From Halonotius aquaticus (GTDB taxonomy: Archaea; Halobacteriota; Halobacteria; Halobacteriales; Haloferacaceae): a DNA stretch of 64,000 nt. Each line of letters starts with the position of its first letter. Within the stretch, counting starts at the first letter, position 1. Shown piece after piece: positions 621 to 10,632 of this stretch. A program made the position numbers and the translations under genes. Location of the stretch: contig NZ_QKNY01000018.1 of assembly GCF_003605575.1 (NCBI RefSeq), forward strand, positions 1 through 64,000. Direction: 5' to 3'. The notes under the pieces were generated by a model. It made no database searches and was not told where the DNA came from. It was given only the letters and a program-made list of their open reading frames with translations.

Positions 621-1634
621 ATGGCATTCTCACTTGGAATGCTGACTGATCCGACGTGGCTAATCGCCTCATTCGCTGGCGGTGCCTTCGGTGCTGCAAT
701 CGGCGCGCTCCCAGCATTCATTTTCACCGGCTTCATGGTGATCGCTGGACAGGCAACAGCATCCCTCGGTCTCGATGGTGCTGGTGAAGGTACTGCACTG
801 ACTGCCTCCGGATTTACCGGTGTGCTTGGTTTCGGTCCTGTCTTCGGCCCACACATCAGCTTCGCCGCTGGTGCGGCCGCAGCCGCATACGCAGCCAAGC
901 AGGGCTACATTGATGACGGTAAGAACATCCTATGGGCTGCCGGTACCCAGAAGACCGACGTACTACTCGTCGGTGGTATCTTCGGCATTCTGGGACTTGC
1001 CTCACAGCAGATCCTCAACGGGATCGGCTTCCCGACAGACAACATTGCACTAACGGTGTTCCTCTCTGCACTTATTCACCGTATTGCATTCGGTTACAGC
1101 GTCATCGGTGAGATTACTGGTGACGGAATGTTCGATGTCGGTCCGTGGGAGCGAGATGAGGATGAAGCCCCTGGCATCTGGCTGCCGTGGCAGTACAAAT
1201 GGAGCGGTGTTGCCTTCATTGGCATCATCGGCGGGCTTCTTGGAGCGTTCGCATACCAAGCAACTGGCAGCGGGCTGATCGGCTTCGGTATCAGTGCGGC
1301 CAGCCTTGTCTTCCTGCAGTGCGGCGTCGATAACATTCCGGTCACACACCACATCACCCTGCCGGGTGCCGTTGGTGCAATCGGTGCATCAGGTGGTGTT
1401 GCTTCCGGGAGCCCGACGCTCGTGCTTATATTCGGCGGCCTCTTCGGTCTCTTCGGTGCCCTCATGGGCGAGATCTGTAACCGTGTCTTCTACATGCACG
1501 GTGAGACGCACGTTGACCCGCCGGCGTTCGGTATCGCAGCTTCAGGGTTGCTAGCGACGGTACTCGCCATCGCAGGTGTGTTCGGGACGGCGTTCTGGAA
1601 CTACCCGAACTCGCTCCTCGGCGTACTCTACTAA
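621..1634 (+). CDS. Polytopic membrane protein linked to glpK, putative glycerol transport/facilitation
   Basis: A 337-residue, glycine- and alanine-rich membrane protein with roughly eight to ten hydrophobic segments and short loops. It starts 2 bases after the glpK stop. As I recall, Haloferax volcanii has a similar membrane gene beside glpK (called glpX, unrelated to the fructose bisphosphatase GlpX) that was proposed as a glycerol uptake protein. It is not a recognisable GlpF aquaporin, since I see no paired NPA motifs. The function is inferred from position and topology. The frame is clean and starts at ATG. Confidence 0.75.
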   Translation: MAFSLGMLTDPTWLIASFAGGAFGAAIGALPAFIFTGFMVIAGQATASLGLDGAGEGTALTASGFTGVLGFGPVFGPHISFAAGAAAAAYAAKQGYIDDGKNILWAAGTQKTDVLLVGGIFGILGLASQQILNGIGFPTDNIALTVFLSALIHRIAFGYSVIGEITGDGMFDVGPWERDEDEAPGIWLPWQYKWSGVAFIGIIGGLLGAFAYQATGSGLIGFGISAASLVFLQCGVDNIPVTHHITLPGAVGAIGASGGVASGSPTLVLIFGGLFGLFGALMGEICNRVFYMHGETHVDPPAFGIAASGLLATVLAIAGVFGTAFWNYPNSLLGVLY

Positions 1635-1833: not shown

Positions 1834-2997
1834 ATGGAACTACACGACCGAATCGCCCGTCGACAGCGTGCCGACGACGCCGACCCGGAGTACGACGCGA
1901 TCAGCCCGCTGGGCCATCCCAGCGAGCCGGTCGGCCGGGGCGCCGTCATCGAGCAGCTACTGGACATCCTCAGCCCCATCTTCGAGGCCGATCGGCCGGC
2001 CGACAGCTACATCTGGGGGCCGAAAGGCGCGGGCAAATCCGCGATCGTCCGCGCGCTGTTTGCCGAATGTAGCCGCCAGCACGGCGAGCGGTCGACACAG
2101 ATGTACACCTCGACGCGAGCGGCCCCGACAACCGAACTCCGATTCCTGTATGTTGACAGCCGACGGGCCCAATCGACGTTCGCGCTCTTACACACGGTCG
2201 TTGCGGCACTCTCCGCGGAAACGGTGCCAAAACAGGGGGTCGGCAGCGCGGCGATGCGTGACCGCCTTGCGACCCAACTGACACAGCGAGATCGACAGGT
2301 TGTCGTCGCCGTCGATCACGTCGGCGACCCCGAGACACTCGACTGTGAGACAGTCTTCGAGCAGTTCGCGCCGTTTCGATCGTCGGTGAGCTGTCTGGCG
2401 ATCGGCCGCGAGAAGCCGGGGGCTACCGCGATCAGCGACCGATCGACGATCAAGCGAATCCACGTCGAGCCCTACACCCAACACACGCTGATCGAAGTGT
2501 TGACCAGCCGAGTCACCGACGCTCAACTGCGAGCGGCGACGACGACCGAGCTGCTCACCGAGGTGGCGACATGGGCCAACGGCGATGCCCACGACGCGCT
2601 TGCGGCGTTGTTCGGCGCGGCGGTGACCGCTGGTGCGGATACCGACACCCGGATCGACGACGAGGCGTTGGCGACCGGGATGGCGGCGGTGCCCCAGCCG
2701 TGTGTCGCACTCGGCCGAGTCATGTCGCTGCCGACGAGTCGGCAACGCATCGTCGGGCGGTTGATCGGGCTGCCGGAGGCCGCACGCAGCTCGGTGAAGG
2801 CAGCCGCCGAAGCGATCAGCAGCGACGGACTTGATCTTTCGCGGGCGACGATCGAACGCGTGCTGTATGAGCTTGCGGAGGCTGGGATCATCCGTCGAGT
2901 GAAAGCCGAACAGCCCTCCGAGACCGGCCGCCCGCCGTCGCGCTTAGAGCCGCGGTTCCCGACGCTCGTCTTCGAGCAGTTGACCGAGACAGTCTAA
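1834..2997 (+). CDS. Orc1/Cdc6-like AAA+ ATPase, divergent
   Basis: A 387-residue protein with the archaeal Orc1/Cdc6 layout: N-terminal linker, AAA+ domain with Walker A GPKGAGKS at residues 62-69, lid region, and a C-terminal winged helix (about 300-385) with the helix pair LDLSRATIERVLYELAEAGII. The expected Walker B acidic pair is replaced by VVVAVDHV (156-163), giving Asp-His instead of Asp-Glu. The sensor-1 region reads CLAIGREK rather than the usual form ending in Asn. It may bind nucleotide and DNA but hydrolyse poorly. I see no G-rich origin-recognition repeats around it, so it is more likely an accessory paralogue than a replication origin marker. A STAND-type regulator is a less likely alternative. 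Confidence 0.72.
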   Translation: MELHDRIARRQRADDADPEYDAISPLGHPSEPVGRGAVIEQLLDILSPIFEADRPADSYIWGPKGAGKSAIVRALFAECSRQHGERSTQMYTSTRAAPTTELRFLYVDSRRAQSTFALLHTVVAALSAETVPKQGVGSAAMRDRLATQLTQRDRQVVVAVDHVGDPETLDCETVFEQFAPFRSSVSCLAIGREKPGATAISDRSTIKRIHVEPYTQHTLIEVLTSRVTDAQLRAATTTELLTEVATWANGDAHDALAALFGAAVTAGADTDTRIDDEALATGMAAVPQPCVALGRVMSLPTSRQRIVGRLIGLPEAARSSVKAAAEAISSDGLDLSRATIERVLYELAEAGIIRRVKAEQPSETGRPPSRLEPRFPTLVFEQLTETV

Positions 2998-3101: not shown

Positions 3102-3109
3102 TTTATGTG
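3102..3109 (+). promoter_or_regulatory. TATA box for the transducer-fusion gene
   Basis: TTTATGTG lies in an AT-rich patch (3080-3109) otherwise absent from this GC-rich stretch. It is centred about 29 bases upstream of the ATG at 3134, the haloarchaeal spacing for a leaderless or near-leaderless mRNA. This favours ATG 3134 over the upstream GTG at 3107. Confidence 0.55.
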
Positions 3110-3133: not shown

Positions 3134-5863
3134 ATGAGTCTACGGTGGATCACGTCTCGTCGGGGTCAGAGGGTCGACACCGGCATACGAGCCGGAAACG
3201 GGGTGCGTATCGGCCTCTGTGCGGCCGCACTCGGGCTCGCGTGGCTCGCGCGCGACCCGACAGCCGGCCTCGCGACTGCCGGCCTGTTCAGTTTTATTCC
3301 GGCGTTTTGGCGATCTGAACACGATGAGACAGCCGACGAGAACGCGACGACCGACGAACAATCGGGCTCGACCGCTGAGACGGAGCCAACGGCTGCCGAG
3401 GACACAGCGACAGCCACAACGGCGGCATCGACCACCGAGACCGGCGTCACAATCGAGGGACAGCCGCCGGGCGTGACCACCGACGGCGGCGAGGTTGTGC
3501 CGAATCAAGGCGACGACAGCGAGTCAGTCGACGAGTGGAAGGCATTTTGCGAACAGCTGACCGACGCGATGGCCGAGGGTGCTGATGGGGATCTGACCGT
3601 CCGGGTCGATCCGGACGACGCACCGGCGGAGGCGACCGAAACCGCCGAGATGTTCAACGAGTTGGTCAATGAGTTCAGCGAAACGGTACAGACGGTCGAT
3701 GACTTCAGCGATCAGGTGACCGGCGCGACAAATCGCGTCACCGGGCGGGTCGAGGAGGTCAAATCCGCCAGCAAGGATATGAGCGGTGAGGTCAACGCGA
3801 TCGCAGACGACGCCAGCAAGCAGAACACCCAACTGGAGGAGCTCTCCGATGAGATCCGATCGCTGTCAGCAGCTACCCAGGAGGTTGCCTCCTCGGCCAG
3901 TGAGGTCGCCGAAGCGTCCGAACAGGCCGCCGAACGCGGCGAGAAGGGCCGGGAGCTGGCAACGGACGCGCTGGCCGAACTCGACGATATCGACACCCGA
4001 ACGACCCGGATGTTGGAGGCCACCCAAGAGCTCGACAGCCGGATCGACGAGATCGAAGAGATCGCGGAATTCATCGGCGATGTCGCCAGCCAGACGAACA
4101 TCCTCGCGCTCAACGCCTCGATCGAGGCCGCCCGCGCGGGCGAGGCCGGCGAAGGGTTCGCCGTCGTCGCCGACGAGGTCAAAAGTCTCGCCGAGGACGC
4201 CGAGGAGGCCGCCGGCGACATCGAAAGCTCGGTGAGTACGATCCGCGAGCAGGCCGATACCACCGTCGAGGAGATGCATGAAACCCGCGAGCGGATCGAT
4301 TCGGGTGTCGATACGATCGAAGGCGCGGTCGAAAACTTCCAACAGATCGCCGACGATGTCGAGGAGACAAACGTCGGCGTCCAGGAGATCAGCGAGGCGA
4401 CCGACCAGCAGGCCAACTCACTGCAGGAGGCGGCGGCGATGGTCGACGACGTGAGTGCGATCGCCGACGATACGGCCAGTCGAACCGAAAACGCCGCCTC
4501 AGCCGCCCAACAGCAGACGACAGCCTTAGCTGAGGTGTCAACCGCGGCGACGACGCTGGATGAACGCAGTAGTTCGCTCAACCAGCTCACAACCAACTAC
4601 GAGTTCGGCGGCGTGAGCTCACAGCTGGCCGCCGACAGCGACGTGACCGTCTTCGAGTTCTGGCACGCGATGGGCGGCGACAAGGGGCTGCTGTTGGAGA
4701 ACCTGATCCGGGAGTTCGAGGAACAGGCCGACGGGATCCGGATCGAGGCGACCAACAAGGGCAGCTACCGTGGCAACCTGGAGTCGACGCTGAACGCCGC
4801 CGAGCGCGGCGACACGCCGACACTGTCACAGATCTACGAGATCGGCACCGCAAAAGCCGTCGACAGCGGTGCCTTCGAGCCGGTCGAAAACGTGTTGCCA
4901 AGCCGAACACAGCTTCGTAACTACCTCGATCCGGTCTTGAGCTACTACCGCACCGACGGCACACTGTACTCGATGCCGTTCAACTCCTCGGTACCGATCT
5001 TGGCGATCAATCAGGATGCCTTCGAGGCCGCCGGACTCGACCCGAACAACCCACCCGAAACCTTCGCGGAGGTCACCGCGGCCGCCGAGAAACTGGTCGA
5101 TGCCGGCGTCACCGACACCGGGATCACCTTCGCCAACTACGGCTGGTTCGTCGAGCAGTGGTTTGCCAGCGCGGGCCAGGAGATCGTCAACAAACAGAAC
5201 GGCCGCGCGGGGACGCCTGATACAGCCTTCTACGACAGCGAGGCCGGCGTCGAGCTCTACGACTGGTGGACAGGCCTCGACGAGCGTGGGCTCTATCATA
5301 ACCCCGGAATCGAGGCCCGCGGAAAGGCCAAAGAGGCCTTCCATGATGGCACCGCGGCGATGTTGGTTGGTTCCTCCTCGTCGTGTGGCTCGATCATCGA
5401 GGGCGCGGAGTTCGAGACGAATGTCAGCGGAATGCCCGCGGCCGGCGAGCGCGTCGGGCTCATCGTCGGCGGCGCGTCGCTGTGGGTCTCCGAGGATGCA
5501 ACTCGCGACCAACAGGAGGCCGCCGGCGAGTTCCTCGCGTGGATGACCGCGCCGGAACAGCAGGCACGCTGGCACCAAGAGACCGGGTACCTGCCGGTAC
5601 ACGAGCAGGGCGTCGAGAAGCTGCGCAACGACGGCTGGTTCCGCGAGAATCCGGGCCACGAGGTCGGGATCCAAGAGCTGCTCGGCAGCCCCGACACGCC
5701 AGCGACCAACGGCGCGCGGATCGGGCCGTTCGATACGGTGCGGACGCTTGTCGCCGAGGCCTACGAGGATATCAAGAACGGCGACACCGAAGAAGAGCTC
5801 GCCACCCTCAGCAATACGGTCGAACAACAGCTTGCAAACTACGCCGCCGAGCAAGGTCGATAA
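3134..5863 (+). CDS. Methyl-accepting transducer fused to a UgpB-like solute-binding domain
   Basis: A 909-residue single-frame fusion. Residues 25-40 and 43-59 form a hydrophobic hairpin; an acidic Thr-rich linker follows. A HAMP-like unit (about 136-191, with GDLTVRV) leads into a long coiled-coil methyl-accepting domain (about 191-485) whose tip carries [20 protein letters not shown] and [14 protein letters not shown]. From residue 502 to the end is a complete family-1 solute-binding domain resembling UgpB, the glycerol-3-phosphate binding protein: [55 protein letters not shown]. No membrane segment or signal peptide separates the two halves, so the binding domain should be cytoplasmic like the signalling domain. 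Together with nearby glpK this suggests sensing of internal glycerol-3-phosphate for taxis. An alternative GTG start lies at 3107. Domains are certain; the ligand is inferred. Confidence 0.9.
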
Positions 5864-5910: not shown

Positions 5911-6207
5911 ATGGAACGAACAGTAACGGTTGTCCCGGAGGATGGACTGCACGCACGACCGGCAACCACGTTCGTCGAAGCCGCAGGCAACTTCGACGCC
6001 GAGATTACGGTCGAAGCAGCCGCTGACACCCGACCACCCGTCGCCGCCGACAGTATTCTCGGTGTCACCGGGCTTGGCGTCCGCCGCGGCGACGACGTAA
6101 CGCTGCACGCCGAAGGGCCGGAGGCCGAACCCGCACTCGACGCGCTGGAAAACGTTATCACGACGCCAGCGGGTGAATCCGATTTTGCCGGCGATGCCAC
6201 CGCGTGA
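5911..6207 (+). CDS. ptsH: HPr-family phosphocarrier protein
   Basis: A 98-residue HPr. The N-terminal active site reads DGLHARPAT, with phosphorylatable His14 and the supporting Arg16. The regulatory-serine region ADSILGVTGLG is also conserved. HPr accepts phosphate from PEP through enzyme I and passes it to EIIA or DhaM-type proteins. No enzyme I, EII or Dha subunit lies in this window, so its partners are elsewhere. In Haloferax an HPr gene sits near the glycerol/dihydroxyacetone genes, as I recall, which matches its position a few kilobases from glpK. It begins 47 bases after the transducer-fusion stop and may be cotranscribed with it. Confidence 0.9.
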   Translation: MERTVTVVPEDGLHARPATTFVEAAGNFDAEITVEAAADTRPPVAADSILGVTGLGVRRGDDVTLHAEGPEAEPALDALENVITTPAGESDFAGDATA

Positions 6208-6250
6208 GCGAATGTGAGCCCACGCAGGTGAAACGGGGGCGGCGGAGCGG

Positions 6251-6258
6251 TTTTTTAT
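6251..6258 (+). promoter_or_regulatory. TATA box for phosphoglycolate phosphatase
   Basis: A TTTTTTAT tract 28-21 bases before the ATG at 6279 in GC-rich surroundings. This is the leaderless spacing and decides against the longer upstream reading frame that begins at 6204. Confidence 0.55.
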
Positions 6259-6278
6259 CCGGGTCGCCGAGAGGCGGT

Positions 6279-6953
6279 ATGGTACCGCCGCTGGCACTCG
6301 ATATCGACGGCACACTGACGACTCGCAGCGACCAGATCGACCCACGGGTCTTTGAGGTGTTGCCGGCGTGGGAGGCACCGATCGTAGTGGCAACCGGCAA
6401 ATCATTTCCCTACCCGGTTGCGCTCTGCCACTTTTTGGGGATTCCGGAACAGGTCGTCGCCGAAAACGGCGGCGTTGTGTGTGCCGACGGGCAGGTCTCG
6501 TTTCAGGGCGACCGCGACCGCGCCGAACAAGCGATCGAAGCGTTTCGAGACCGCGGCGGCGACCTTGGCTGGGATGCCGCTGATACAACAAACCGGTGGC
6601 GGGAGAGCGAACTCGCCGCCCACATCGACGCCGACGAGGAGTTGCTCCGAGCAGTCGCCGAGGAGTTTGGGCTGGAGGTCATCGATACCGGCTACGCCTA
6701 TCATCTGAAGACGCCAGGTGTTGAGAAAGGCGATGGCTTGGCTGCTGTTGCCGATATACTCGGGCTGGACGCCGGGTCGTTCGTGGCGATCGGCGACAGC
6801 GAAAATGATGTCTCGCTGTTTGGGGCCGCCGGCGACTCCTATGCGGTTGGCAACGCCGACAAGCGCGCGAAAGCGGCCGCCGAGACGGTGATCGACGGCG
6901 AATACTTCGACGGAACGCTTGGCGTCCTTGAGTCACTTCAAGCAGAGGCGTAG
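6279..6953 (+). CDS. Phosphoglycolate phosphatase, HAD superfamily
   Basis: A 224-residue HAD phosphatase of the archaeal TA0175-type phosphoglycolate phosphatase family. It hydrolyses 2-phosphoglycolate to glycolate. Motif I LDIDGTLT gives nucleophile Asp8 and acid/base Asp10; motif II is ATGKSF, motif III the Lys of GVEKGDGL, and motif IV IGDSENDVSLF. The C2-type cap lies between motifs II and III. The start at 6279 is supported by a TATA box at leaderless distance; the frame is open upstream to 6204 but that extension lacks family character. The family is certain, the exact substrate likely. Confidence 0.88.
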   Translation: MVPPLALDIDGTLTTRSDQIDPRVFEVLPAWEAPIVVATGKSFPYPVALCHFLGIPEQVVAENGGVVCADGQVSFQGDRDRAEQAIEAFRDRGGDLGWDAADTTNRWRESELAAHIDADEELLRAVAEEFGLEVIDTGYAYHLKTPGVEKGDGLAAVADILGLDAGSFVAIGDSENDVSLFGAAGDSYAVGNADKRAKAAAETVIDGEYFDGTLGVLESLQAEA

Positions 6954-7403: not shown

Positions 7404-7559
7404 ATGGCACTCCACTTCCCCACGCTCCACTCGGCAGCAGATACCGGGAGCCGATTTGAATGCACAGACTGCGGCACGCGGCTCGAAGAAACGGACGGCA
7501 GCCGACGGTGTCCAACCTGTGGGGCAACCGTCAGAAACATCGCTGTCCCACGAAACTGA
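7404..7559 (+). CDS. Rubrerythrin-like zinc-ribbon small protein
   Basis: A 51-codon gene with two CxxC knuckles, ECTDCG (Cys20, Cys23) and RCPTCG (Cys36, Cys39), followed by the tail TVRNIAVPR. This is the layout of haloarchaeal rubrerythrin-like zinc-ribbon microproteins. It lacks the di-iron helical domain of true rubrerythrin and so should bind only one metal, Zn or Fe. A well-placed TATA box and the family-typical C-terminus make it convincing despite its size. The role is unknown; regulatory or protein-interaction functions are typical guesses for such microproteins. Confidence 0.8.
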   Translation: MALHFPTLHSAADTGSRFECTDCGTRLEETDGSRRCPTCGATVRNIAVPRN

Positions 7560-7579
7560 CCCGTTTGCGGAGCCAGCGG

Positions 7580-7858
7580 TCAGTCCTCGCTGATCGTATA
7601 CCGGTAGGGCTGTTGAGCGATCACCGTGACCTCACCGGTTTTCGCCCGGCGGCCGAGCACCGTCGCCAGCTGGTGTGGGCTCTCAAACGTTGTCTCACCG
7701 TCATCAGCTTCAAGCGCCGCAAGAATCTCACGCGCCGTCAACGGCTCATCGGCGGCCGCAAGCACACCTTCAACACGGTCGAAATCGCTCGGTGTGGTCT
7801 GCATACACACACTTACGGTGCGATCGGTTTCAATCTGTGTGTGACGACTGTCAGACAT
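7580..7858 (-). CDS. Small winged-helix-like protein of unknown function
   Basis: A 92-residue protein. After a polar N-terminus, residues 25-90 read like a winged helix: helix DRVEGVLAAADEP, helix LTAREILAALEA, helix SPHQLATVLGRRAK, then a strand pair GEVTVIAQQPYRYTI. It could be a small DNA-binding regulator, but no effector domain is present. It converges on the zinc-ribbon gene with only 20 bases between the stops. I do not recognise a named family. Confidence 0.6.
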   Translation of the reverse strand: MSDSRHTQIETDRTVSVCMQTTPSDFDRVEGVLAAADEPLTAREILAALEADDGETTFESPHQLATVLGRRAKTGEVTVIAQQPYRYTISED

Positions 7859-7960
7859 CCGGCTGGATGGCCGATAAGAGCGCCAAGCTAGCTGTTTCGA
7901 CGAAATAAGTTCGTAACAATAAAGAAACCAATAGGCGGCGTGTGACCGTCGAGCGAGCGA

Positions 7961-8494
7961 CTACGGGGTGAACGTCTCCTCTTCGAGGTTTCGTTCCTCG
8001 CGGTACTGCTCGACAAACTCGGCCACGTCAAACTCGTGCATCTTCGCCTCAAACTCGGTGAGCGCGCTGGTGTCGTCGGCGTGGCTGACCGCATGCTCCA
8101 TCAACTCGATGACGAGTTCGACGATGCGTTCATGCAGCGTTCGGGAGTCAAAGTCGGTGATCCACAGCAGCGCGAAGCCGACATCCGGCTCCTCGGTGGC
8201 GTCGTAGGAGACGACCTGTTCGGGAAACTCCTCAAGGACAATCCCAAGCAGGTGTGGGGTTCCAAACTCCGGCATCTCCTCGCTGGTGGTTTCGATCGCC
8301 TCCTGGAGTACCGCGACCAGAAACTCCGGGAGGAACCGATCCGGCGGATGAACGTCCATCACCACAGCATGGGTTGCGCCACAGTCACAGTCGTACTCGC
8401 GCATCCCGAGATCGAGATCGGTGACGGCAACTGACTCACCGCAGGGGAGGTCGAGCTGCTCGCCGCGGTCGCCCGGGACGCGTGGGGTAGCCAT
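7961..8494 (-). CDS. DUF5815-like conserved haloarchaeal protein
   Basis: A 177-residue acidic protein. The N-terminal part carries a short Cys pair in YDCDCGATHAVVMDVHPP, followed by a mostly helical body with FGTPHLLGIVLEEFPEQVV and ALLWITDFDSRTLHERIVEL. From memory it matches DUF5815, found only in haloarchaea. There is no signal peptide or membrane segment, so it is cytoplasmic. The function is unknown. It is a separate unit 102 bases upstream of the winged-helix-like gene on the same strand. Confidence 0.72.
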   Translation of the reverse strand: MATPRVPGDRGEQLDLPCGESVAVTDLDLGMREYDCDCGATHAVVMDVHPPDRFLPEFLVAVLQEAIETTSEEMPEFGTPHLLGIVLEEFPEQVVSYDATEEPDVGFALLWITDFDSRTLHERIVELVIELMEHAVSHADDTSALTEFEAKMHEFDVAEFVEQYREERNLEEETFTP

Positions 8495-8548
8495 GGATGG
8501 TGTTCGGGTGAGGAGTGATTAAATCCCGTGTTATCGAATCGATCGCGC

Positions 8549-9169
8549 TTAGCTGTCGGCGCGCTCGGCGTCGTCGACAGCATCGCTCAGTCCGGGGGCG
8601 TTGCTCGGATCGGCGTCGGCAGGCTCAGCGGTGCCATGGCCAACGTGGAGTTCACCGTCACCGTCCTCGACGTATACGTCGTCGGCGAAGCCGGCGATGG
8701 CGTTCTCGTAGGCCGGCTGATCGCGTTTCTCTGGCGTTTCGGGGGCGTCAGGAATCCCACCGGCCGGCCGGAACTCGCCGAGTGGGTCGTCAACGCTGAT
8801 CCCGTAGCGTTTGAAAAACTCCTCGTAGCGGCGGAAGTGCTGTTCGAACTCCTCGGCAGGGATCTCCATCATCTCCGTCCAGCCGTGGTTGAAGAAATCG
8901 AAGTTGGCCTGAATGTGGGTGATCTCACGCGCTTTGGCCTCCGAGAGCCCGGCTTCGAGCGCGGCGACGTAGGTGTCCATCGTCGCATCAAAGAAGCCAT
9001 CGAGGTGGTCGCGGCGGGCCTCGCGGGCCGCTTCGTCGGCTTTCCCGAGGAAGATGTCCGTGTGCATATCGACGAGCTTGTCGTTGGCGATGTCGCCGAT
9101 CACCGGTGCGGTCAGGGCGTTTTTTGCGGCCCAGTGACGGAGGTTTTGGCGGATTTTCATCGTAGCCAC
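8549..9169 (-). CDS. DUF6149-like conserved haloarchaeal protein
   Basis: A 206-residue cytoplasmic protein, mainly helical, with the conserved block AREITHIQANFDFFNHGWTE and then GISVDDPLGEFRPAGGIPDAP, closing with an acidic FADDVYVEDGDGELHVG tail. From memory this is the DUF6149 family of haloarchaea. The start could be at codon 1 or at the Met4 of MKIRQNLRHWAAK. No function is known to me. It points away from the oxidoreductase gene, leaving a 218-base divergent promoter gap. Confidence 0.72.
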   Translation of the reverse strand: MATMKIRQNLRHWAAKNALTAPVIGDIANDKLVDMHTDIFLGKADEAAREARRDHLDGFFDATMDTYVAALEAGLSEAKAREITHIQANFDFFNHGWTEMMEIPAEEFEQHFRRYEEFFKRYGISVDDPLGEFRPAGGIPDAPETPEKRDQPAYENAIAGFADDVYVEDGDGELHVGHGTAEPADADPSNAPGLSDAVDDAERADS

Positions 9170-9387
9170 TGTTGGGGATGGACAGGCTTGAAGGCCACGG
9201 CACGGCGGTTACATCGTCAGCGTCGACAATCGGGGGCACCGGCGGCGGGATGAAATCGGGCGGAAACCCGCCCACAGGAGCGACGAGAAACACGTATTTG
9301 TCCGGTCGCAGCTCCCCGGTATGGACGGTTGTCAACGGTTCCGCGTCGATAGCAACCTCCTTTACCCCGGATCACGAACGCGGGGAT

Positions 9388-10632
9388 ATGACAGCATCGT
9401 ACGTCGTTATCGGTGACGGGATCGCGGGCAGCTCCGCCGCGGAGACACTCCGGGAAGAGGCCCCGGACGCCGAGATCACCGTCATCACCGAAGAGGGCGA
9501 GGCCCTCTACAACCGGATCCTCATCAAGGAGTACGCCAAGGGCAAACTCCCCGAGGCCCCCATTTCGATCCACGACGAGAGCTGGTATGTCGACCGCGAT
9601 ATCGACCTCCGGCTCAACACCGTCGTCACCAACATCGATCCCGACGGCCACACCGTCTCGACCCACGAGGGCGAGACGATCGGCTATGACAAGCTGCTGG
9701 TCGCCACCGGCGGCACCCCAACCCAGCTCCCGGTCGACAACAGCGACGCCGACGGGATTCATCACTTCTGGACGTTCCAAGACGCCCGGAACATCCGTGA
9801 GCATATCGAGGACGCCGACTCGGCGACCATCGTCGGTGCGGGGCTGCTCGGTGTCGACCTTGCGGCGATCTGTGGCGAACAGGAGGTCGAAGCCAACTAT
9901 CTCATGCGCGGTGACTGTTGGTGGCGGTATGCACTCACCGAGGAGGGCGCGGAGATCATGCACGACGCGATGCGGGAACGCGGCGTTACCCCCGTCTTCC
10001 AGAGCGGCGTCGATCACTTCGAGACCGACGACGAGGGCCACGTTGAGGCGACGATCGACCCCAACGGCGAGCGGTTCGAGTCGGATTTCGTCGGCATCGC
10101 TATCGGCCTCAACTTCAACGTCGAACTGCTCCAAGATCTCGATATCGAACAGGACGACGGCGTCGTCGTCGACGAGTATATGCGCACCAGTCTCGACGAC
10201 GTGTTCGCCGCCGGCGATCTGACGCGGTACTATGATACAATTCTCGGCGAGTACGCACAGAATGGCTCGTGGGGGTCGGCCAAAGAGCAGGGCACCATCG
10301 CCGCGAAAAATATGATCACCCCCGAAAGCGATGCGTTTCGCTGGGTCTCCTCATATTCGATCACACACTTCGATTTCCCCTTCCTCTCGTTTGGCCACCC
10401 GACGATCGGCGACGAGTACGTCTCACGATCCTACGGCGACAACGAGTGGCGGCGCGTCGCCATCAAGGATGGCAAGGTCGTCGGCGGCGTGCTAATCGGC
10501 GATCTTGCCCCCCAGAGCGGCTACAAGGAACTCATGCGCGAGGAGATCCCGGTCGGCGACCAGACGGAAACGCTGCTCAACGAGGAGTTCGAGGCCGACG
10601 ACATCGCACCGGTACAGGAACAACAGCAGTAG
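9388..10632 (+). CDS. FAD-dependent NAD(P)-disulfide-type oxidoreductase
   Basis: A 414-residue flavoprotein. The FAD-binding Rossmann motif VIGDGIAGSSAAETL opens the protein, with LLVATGGTPTQLP and the second FAD motif DDVFAAGDLTRYYD downstream. An NAD(P)-binding Rossmann motif, TIVGAGLLGVDLA, sits in the middle. The architecture resembles ferredoxin/rubredoxin reductases and the N-terminus of NirB nitrite reductase. No redox-active CxxC is visible, so it is not a dithiol reductase. I set the start at the ATG at 9388, just before the FAD motif; the frame is open back to 9172. The electron acceptor is unknown. Confidence 0.86.
   Translation: MTASYVVIGDGIAGSSAAETLREEAPDAEITVITEEGEALYNRILIKEYAKGKLPEAPISIHDESWYVDRDIDLRLNTVVTNIDPDGHTVSTHEGETIGYDKLLVATGGTPTQLPVDNSDADGIHHFWTFQDARNIREHIEDADSATIVGAGLLGVDLAAICGEQEVEANYLMRGDCWWRYALTEEGAEIMHDAMRERGVTPVFQSGVDHFETDDEGHVEATIDPNGERFESDFVGIAIGLNFNVELLQDLDIEQDDGVVVDEYMRTSLDDVFAAGDLTRYYDTILGEYAQNGSWGSAKEQGTIAAKNMITPESDAFRWVSSYSITHFDFPFLSFGHPTIGDEYVSRSYGDNEWRRVAIKDGKVVGGVLIGDLAPQSGYKELMREEIPVGDQTETLLNEEFEADDIAPVQEQQQ

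Follow-up and report, generated by a model that had tools for sequence, protein, structure and literature searches.

Solute-binding proteins normally act outside the cytoplasm, and the ligand domains of chemoreceptors usually lie at the N-terminus, outside the cell. The locus described here raises the question of what a chemoreceptor would do with a solute-binding protein at its other end: whether such a chain is real, on which side of the membrane its binding domain sits, what it would bind, and how binding could be passed on to the signalling tip. The gene lies in a 64,000-nucleotide stretch of Halonotius aquaticus DNA (contig NZ_QKNY01000018.1, positions 1 to 64,000; hereafter, the window). 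A sequence-only reading had proposed that it encodes, in one frame, a hydrophobic hairpin, a HAMP-like unit, a methyl-accepting coiled coil and a UgpB-like domain that faces the cytoplasm and reads the glycerol-3-phosphate pool made by a neighboring GlpK. The frame is indeed uninterrupted (Table 1), and all protein motifs quoted in that reading are found in the sequence. The protein is almost certainly a fused intracellular receptor, and it fairly probably belongs to a widespread haloarchaeal family in which an ABC-type solute-binding protein was turned into an intracellular sensor at the receptor's C-terminal base, with cells navigating by their pool of sn-glycerol-3-phosphate (G3P) or sn-glycerol-1-phosphate (G1P).

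Table 1. Features around the fused receptor gene, in window coordinates (residue numbers refer to the receptor protein)
Feature	Position	Strand	Remark
3' part of glpK (glycerol kinase), truncated by contig start	4..618	+	94% identical to the full-length glpK of L015
Multi-span membrane protein	621..1634	+	no Pfam/NCBIfam match; kept beside glpK in relatives
Orc1/Cdc6-like AAA protein, winged-helix-like C-terminus	1834..2997	+	conserved in the glycerol cluster
Fused receptor gene	3134..5863	+	909 aa, one uninterrupted frame; same fusion in relatives
Weak N-terminal hydrophobic hairpin, residues 22-58	3197..3307	+	hydropathy and low-confidence model helices 22-40, 42-48, 51-54
HAMP-like unit, residues about 141-180	3554..3673	+	PF00672, E 4e-4, 21 bits (Pfam cut-off, 25)
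Methyl-accepting coiled-coil hairpin, residues 165-488	3626..4597	+	MCPsignal 275-443; conserved tip from about residue 322
Short linker, residues 489-503	4598..4642	+	disordered in model
UgpB-type binding domain, residues 504-889	4643..5800	+	structure matches, alignment
ptsH, phosphocarrier HPr	5911..6207	+	downstream of the receptor

Both halves of the receptor are recognizable by profile and by fold. The signalling half carries a Pfam MCPsignal domain (residues 275-443, E 8e-41), and in a search of solved structures residues 198-489 resemble the cytoplasmic domains of bacterial methyl-accepting chemotaxis proteins (MCPs). The conserved tip motif and at least one methylation-site-like consensus motif in the coiled coil (a motif match only) occur in all 43 receptors compared. 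The C-terminal half matches SBP_bac_8 (residues 524-824, E 2e-40), and among solved structures E. coli UgpB comes closest to residues 504-889 (4aq4, E 7e-62), followed by a UgpB double mutant and then by Phaeobacter UgpB solved with glycerol-1-phosphate, which bears out the UgpB-like identity proposed for this half. The NCBIfam UgpB model scores the domain at 235 bits (E 2e-69) against a cut-off of 411, so that we treat it as a homologue of UgpB and make no equivalog call. The architecture proposed for the remainder of the chain stood in part: the coiled coil and its tip are clear, whereas the HAMP-like unit stays below the Pfam cut-off and the hairpin falls below the hydropathy threshold in the window protein, being clearer in relatives. 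Upstream of the gene, a TATA-like TTTATG at 3102-3107, i.e., 27-32 bases before the receptor ATG, would fit a leaderless transcript from near 3134.

If this chain were an artefact of assembly, a missed stop codon or a frameshift between two genes, close relatives should carry the two halves as separate genes; they carry the fusion instead. The same full-length fused gene is present in Halonotius pteroides, roseus and terrestris, and a full-length fusion (defined as an open frame of at least 780 residues holding the binding domain) was found in 66 of 394 sampled genomes of the class, distributed over 14 genera and three families, with four further cases in this sample being short. The unmasked part of a scaffold from the uncultured archaeon A07HN63 (L014) carries the fusion as well, the remainder of that region being masked. 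Matches in a wider phylum sample of 247 genomes were confined to the same order as the haloarchaeal fusions, and a plasmid collection yielded no fusion, only free-standing relatives or MCPs lacking a UgpB-type domain. In a tree of 72 binding domains, all 43 fused ones fall on one side of a branch (support 97/99; 98% of bootstrap trees), with free-standing haloarchaeal binding proteins as the neighbors of the fused clade, and a single fusion event is the simplest reading of this tree. Further, dN/dS values of 0.06-0.18 between Halonotius species for both halves of the receptor indicate that both are under purifying selection. Independently assembled genomes from many genera show the identical layout, the fused domains form a single clade, and selection acts on both halves; an artefact therefore has next to no chance of being the right explanation, and it is ruled out by the presence of the fusion in other Halonotius as well as in some 60 more genomes.

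The location of the binding domain is the next issue, since the domain could be outside the cell, sensing external glycerol phosphates as ordinary solute-binding proteins do; its close relatives are external lipoproteins, and the Halonotius receptors do have an N-terminal hydrophobic hairpin. Against such an arrangement, no hydrophobic segment leads from the cytoplasmic tip to the binding domain: neither hydropathy nor sequence revealed a membrane helix or signal peptide between the receptor halves, and the 19-residue mean hydropathy of the window protein never rises above 1.01 beyond the tip. Among the 43 receptors compared, the N-terminal hairpin is seen only in those of Halonotius and of the genera coded g11 and g9, and the rest have no such segment and appear to be soluble. 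One receptor (L070) is an exception, with a single mild hydropathy peak within its binding domain; it lies near a contig end, and its start is either absent or wrongly placed. A twin-arginine (Tat) signal and a lipobox cysteine stand at the beginning of nearly all 20 free-standing haloarchaeal relatives (the start of one, L118, was called too far upstream for its export signal to be judged), whereas the receptor has neither, which argues that the export signal was lost at fusion. There is no membrane segment between the halves, most homologues lack such a segment altogether, and the signalling tip must face CheA; the binding domain is therefore placed in the cytoplasm, as had been proposed. 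We consider this a strong inference from sequence and topology; an external domain is rejected on the same topology and seems very improbable. Residues 22-58 are the only possible membrane part of the window protein, and this weak hairpin may anchor the receptor to the membrane with both domains still inside.

As for what the domain would bind, the ligand of Phaeobacter UgpB is contacted by Tyr64, Glu88, Ser143, Trp188, Trp191, Ser266, Gly303, Tyr342 and Arg393 (PMC12718374), with which Y545, E569, S619, N668, W671, S747, G780, Y819 and R870 of the window protein align in the same order. Eight of the nine are invariant across all 43 receptors, and the Trp188 position is Asn in 38 receptors and Thr in five, as well as Asn in all 20 free-standing relatives. 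Since 67 of the 409 alignment columns are invariant, the invariance of eight pocket residues exceeds general conservation (P 3e-6, although columns are not independent). The contacts to phosphate and glycerol are thus retained in the predicted pocket, whereas the tryptophan clamp is incomplete. A degenerate binding domain is rejected by this conservation coupled to purifying selection, and judging from the aligned pocket residues a glycerol phosphate or its diester is quite likely the ligand.

Glycerol is a chief carbon source in haloarchaeal brines, and the receptor gene stands in a glycerol neighborhood. The contig starts inside glpK, and consequently the upstream part of the cluster (where a divergent glpA is expected) lies outside the window. 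The gene for the membrane protein starts three bases after glpK, and its product may be a glycerol entry protein; by description, it resembles HQ1732A of Haloquadratum, a membrane protein adjoining glpK whose homologues are reported to be always associated with glycerol genes (PMC5496347). The AAA protein comes next; across many genera its gene remains a neighbor of glpK and the receptor gene, and its role there is perhaps regulatory. Downstream of the receptor, ptsH overlaps a phosphoglycolate-phosphatase-like HAD gene by four bases (5911-6953).

With glpK present in 345 of the 394 genomes, genome co-occurrence is uninformative, and gene distance was used instead. A search across Halobacteria for fusions near glpK, which the sequence-only reading had suggested, placed glpK within about 10 kb (in the fetched flanks) of 18 of the 43 receptors, in seven genera, and these receptors share a glpABC/glpK/ptsHI/dhaKLM neighborhood. 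Two main layouts were seen: one with glpA divergent from glpK - membrane protein - AAA protein - receptor - ptsH - ptsI, facing dhaM-dhaL (complete in L071, partial in L060-L062 and Halonotius), and another with glpABC divergent from receptor - glpK - membrane protein - AAA protein (L076, L077, L080-L083, L087 and L098), while L073 and L091 show other layouts. Gene order thus differs between genera; for instance, ptsH is followed by ptsI in L071 and by the HAD gene here. No common neighbor theme was found for the remaining receptors (more than half of the 43, many of them in the large genus g2). The scanned near neighbors of the receptor included no importer genes, and at the thresholds applied, this genome showed no other UgpB-type protein.

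Based on these data, we propose that in a single event, with loss of its export signal, a haloarchaeal UgpB-type protein became joined to the coiled coil at the latter's C-terminal end. The binding domain would then be located in the cytoplasm, where the signalling hairpin has its base and close to the HAMP-like unit. Incoming glycerol would be phosphorylated by GlpK to G3P, and G3P would close the two-lobed binding domain. Closure would then act through the short linker of near-fixed length on the coiled-coil base and change CheA activity, with methylation resetting the receptor. Swimming would, under this proposal, be steered by the glycerol actually taken up and phosphorylated. On balance, we favor the view that the protein is a chemoreceptor for the intracellular glycerol-phosphate pool, which may signal via the coiled-coil base, and G3P made by GlpK is probably, in our estimation, the main signal. 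Structure prediction had been proposed earlier as a check. In the full-length AlphaFold2 model (16 sequences), confidence is mostly good in the binding domain, a long hairpin of helices is seen, and the linker (490-501) is disordered; the top Foldseek match of the binding domain is UgpB 6x84 (target TM-score 0.92), which upholds the UgpB fold, whereas the pTM of 0.50 for the whole chain leaves the arrangement of the two halves unestablished. The spacing from tip to binding domain is 180-187 residues in the 38 receptors measured, with 201 to 384 residues ahead of the tip across receptors; such near-constant spacing would be required for mechanical coupling via the coiled-coil end, though it is no more than suggestive of it.

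Alternatively, the same receptor might answer to another internal ligand, either G1P, the backbone of archaeal lipids, or a glycerophosphodiester released in lipid turnover, in which case its signal would reflect glycerol catabolism less than the lipid or phosphate status of the cell. Phaeobacter UgpB binds both G1P (Kd 2.4 uM) and G3P (0.8 uM) in the same pocket, so the receptor sequence cannot decide between the two, and loss of the second clamp tryptophan accompanied a narrowing to small glycerol phosphates (PMC12718374). Three observations stand against G3P as the main signal, namely the Asn or Thr in place of one clamp tryptophan, the binding of G1P by UgpB, and the distance from glpK of more than half of the receptors, and all three also suit another internal ligand. 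That the receptor gene recurs alongside glpK, glpABC and dha genes in several genera argues the other way, and we regard a different internal ligand as possible but rather doubtful. The earlier proposal that the receptor reads the pool made by GlpK therefore survives in its general form, through the kept pocket and the link to glycerol clusters in several genera, but is weakened by the same three observations as regards sn-glycerol-3-phosphate itself.

It could also be that the binding domain is kept for a job other than sensing, either without control over the receptor or in an array that does not drive swimming. Cytosolic Htr11, 13 and 15 of Halobacterium, which were recovered mainly with CheW2 as bait but not with CheA (PMC3579733), provide a possible precedent, but this reading is unlikely given that the pocket is invariant, the tip intact and the spacing between tip and binding domain fixed. 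The distribution of cheR also speaks against it, since the gene is present in all 66 genomes with a full-length fusion vs. 249 of the 328 others (relatedness inflates this contrast), and this genome has one CheR only. From the intact signalling tip and the universal co-occurrence with cheR, we infer that the receptor is coupled to swimming.

The glycerol-phosphate receptor favored here shares features with several known systems. It is like UgpB (E. coli 4aq4/6x84, Phaeobacter 9lff) in fold, in about 31% identity over the domain and in eight of nine ligand residues; unlike UgpB, which is exported and feeds an ABC importer, it carries the domain C-terminally without an export signal and with one clamp tryptophan replaced. 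Of the 18 transducers of Halobacterium, six lack a membrane segment and are presumed to respond to internal signals, with Car reading arginine (PMC3579733). The receptor resembles Car and these membrane-free transducers as a haloarchaeal MCP with no or a minimal membrane part, but differs in sensor type and ligand, with no solute-binding-protein domain being described for the Car type in that study. It also resembles BasB/BasT and CosB/CosT, in which a separate external binding protein is paired with an Htr-type transducer (cited in PMC3579733), but is one chain, without a lipobox and with the binding domain inside. One genome (G151) has a two-protein version in addition to the fused receptor, with a gene for a free-standing UgpB-like lipoprotein divergent from an adjoining HAMP-containing MCP gene (L114:6072-7448 and 7534-10146).

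Our search of the open-access literature on MCPs with solute-binding-protein domains, haloarchaeal receptors and glycerol found no published description of an MCP fused to a UgpB-type domain, in agreement with the earlier statement that no receptor of this design has been described. Database entries for the fused receptor surely exist under generic names, and the new element is the sensor, i.e., a complete solute-binding protein, intracellular and at the C-terminal end of the receptor. Thus, an entire binding protein whose ligand chemistry is known has been relocated to the inside of the cell and to the opposite receptor end, and kept there in 14 haloarchaeal genera. If the model is correct, the coiled coil of an MCP is driven at its C-terminal end by a two-lobed clamp, a geometry for which we found no described case, and swimming is tied directly to glycerol flux or lipid synthesis. 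Because the pocket is known, the proposed ligand comes from a neighboring enzyme, and glycerol has the nutritional importance noted above, metabolism-dependent taxis becomes directly testable in this system.

Finally, two other apparently soluble receptors were encountered. A protein of Natronomonas pharaonis plasmid PL131 (L121:2765-5155, NC_007427.1; WP_232503995.1), annotated as "urea ABC transporter substrate-binding protein", consists of Peripla_BP_6 followed by an MCP signalling domain; by its domain content, it is a second, unrelated case in which a receptor that seems to be soluble carries a binding domain, and we found no described function for it. Like the receptor studied here, it joins a periplasmic-binding-protein domain to an MCP domain without a predicted membrane helix, but its binding domain is of an unrelated family and N-terminal. 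The same genome as the window also encodes a soluble protoglobin-MCP fusion (L006:769-2310; G000 contig C10, about 497730-498542), a HemAT-like oxygen sensor.
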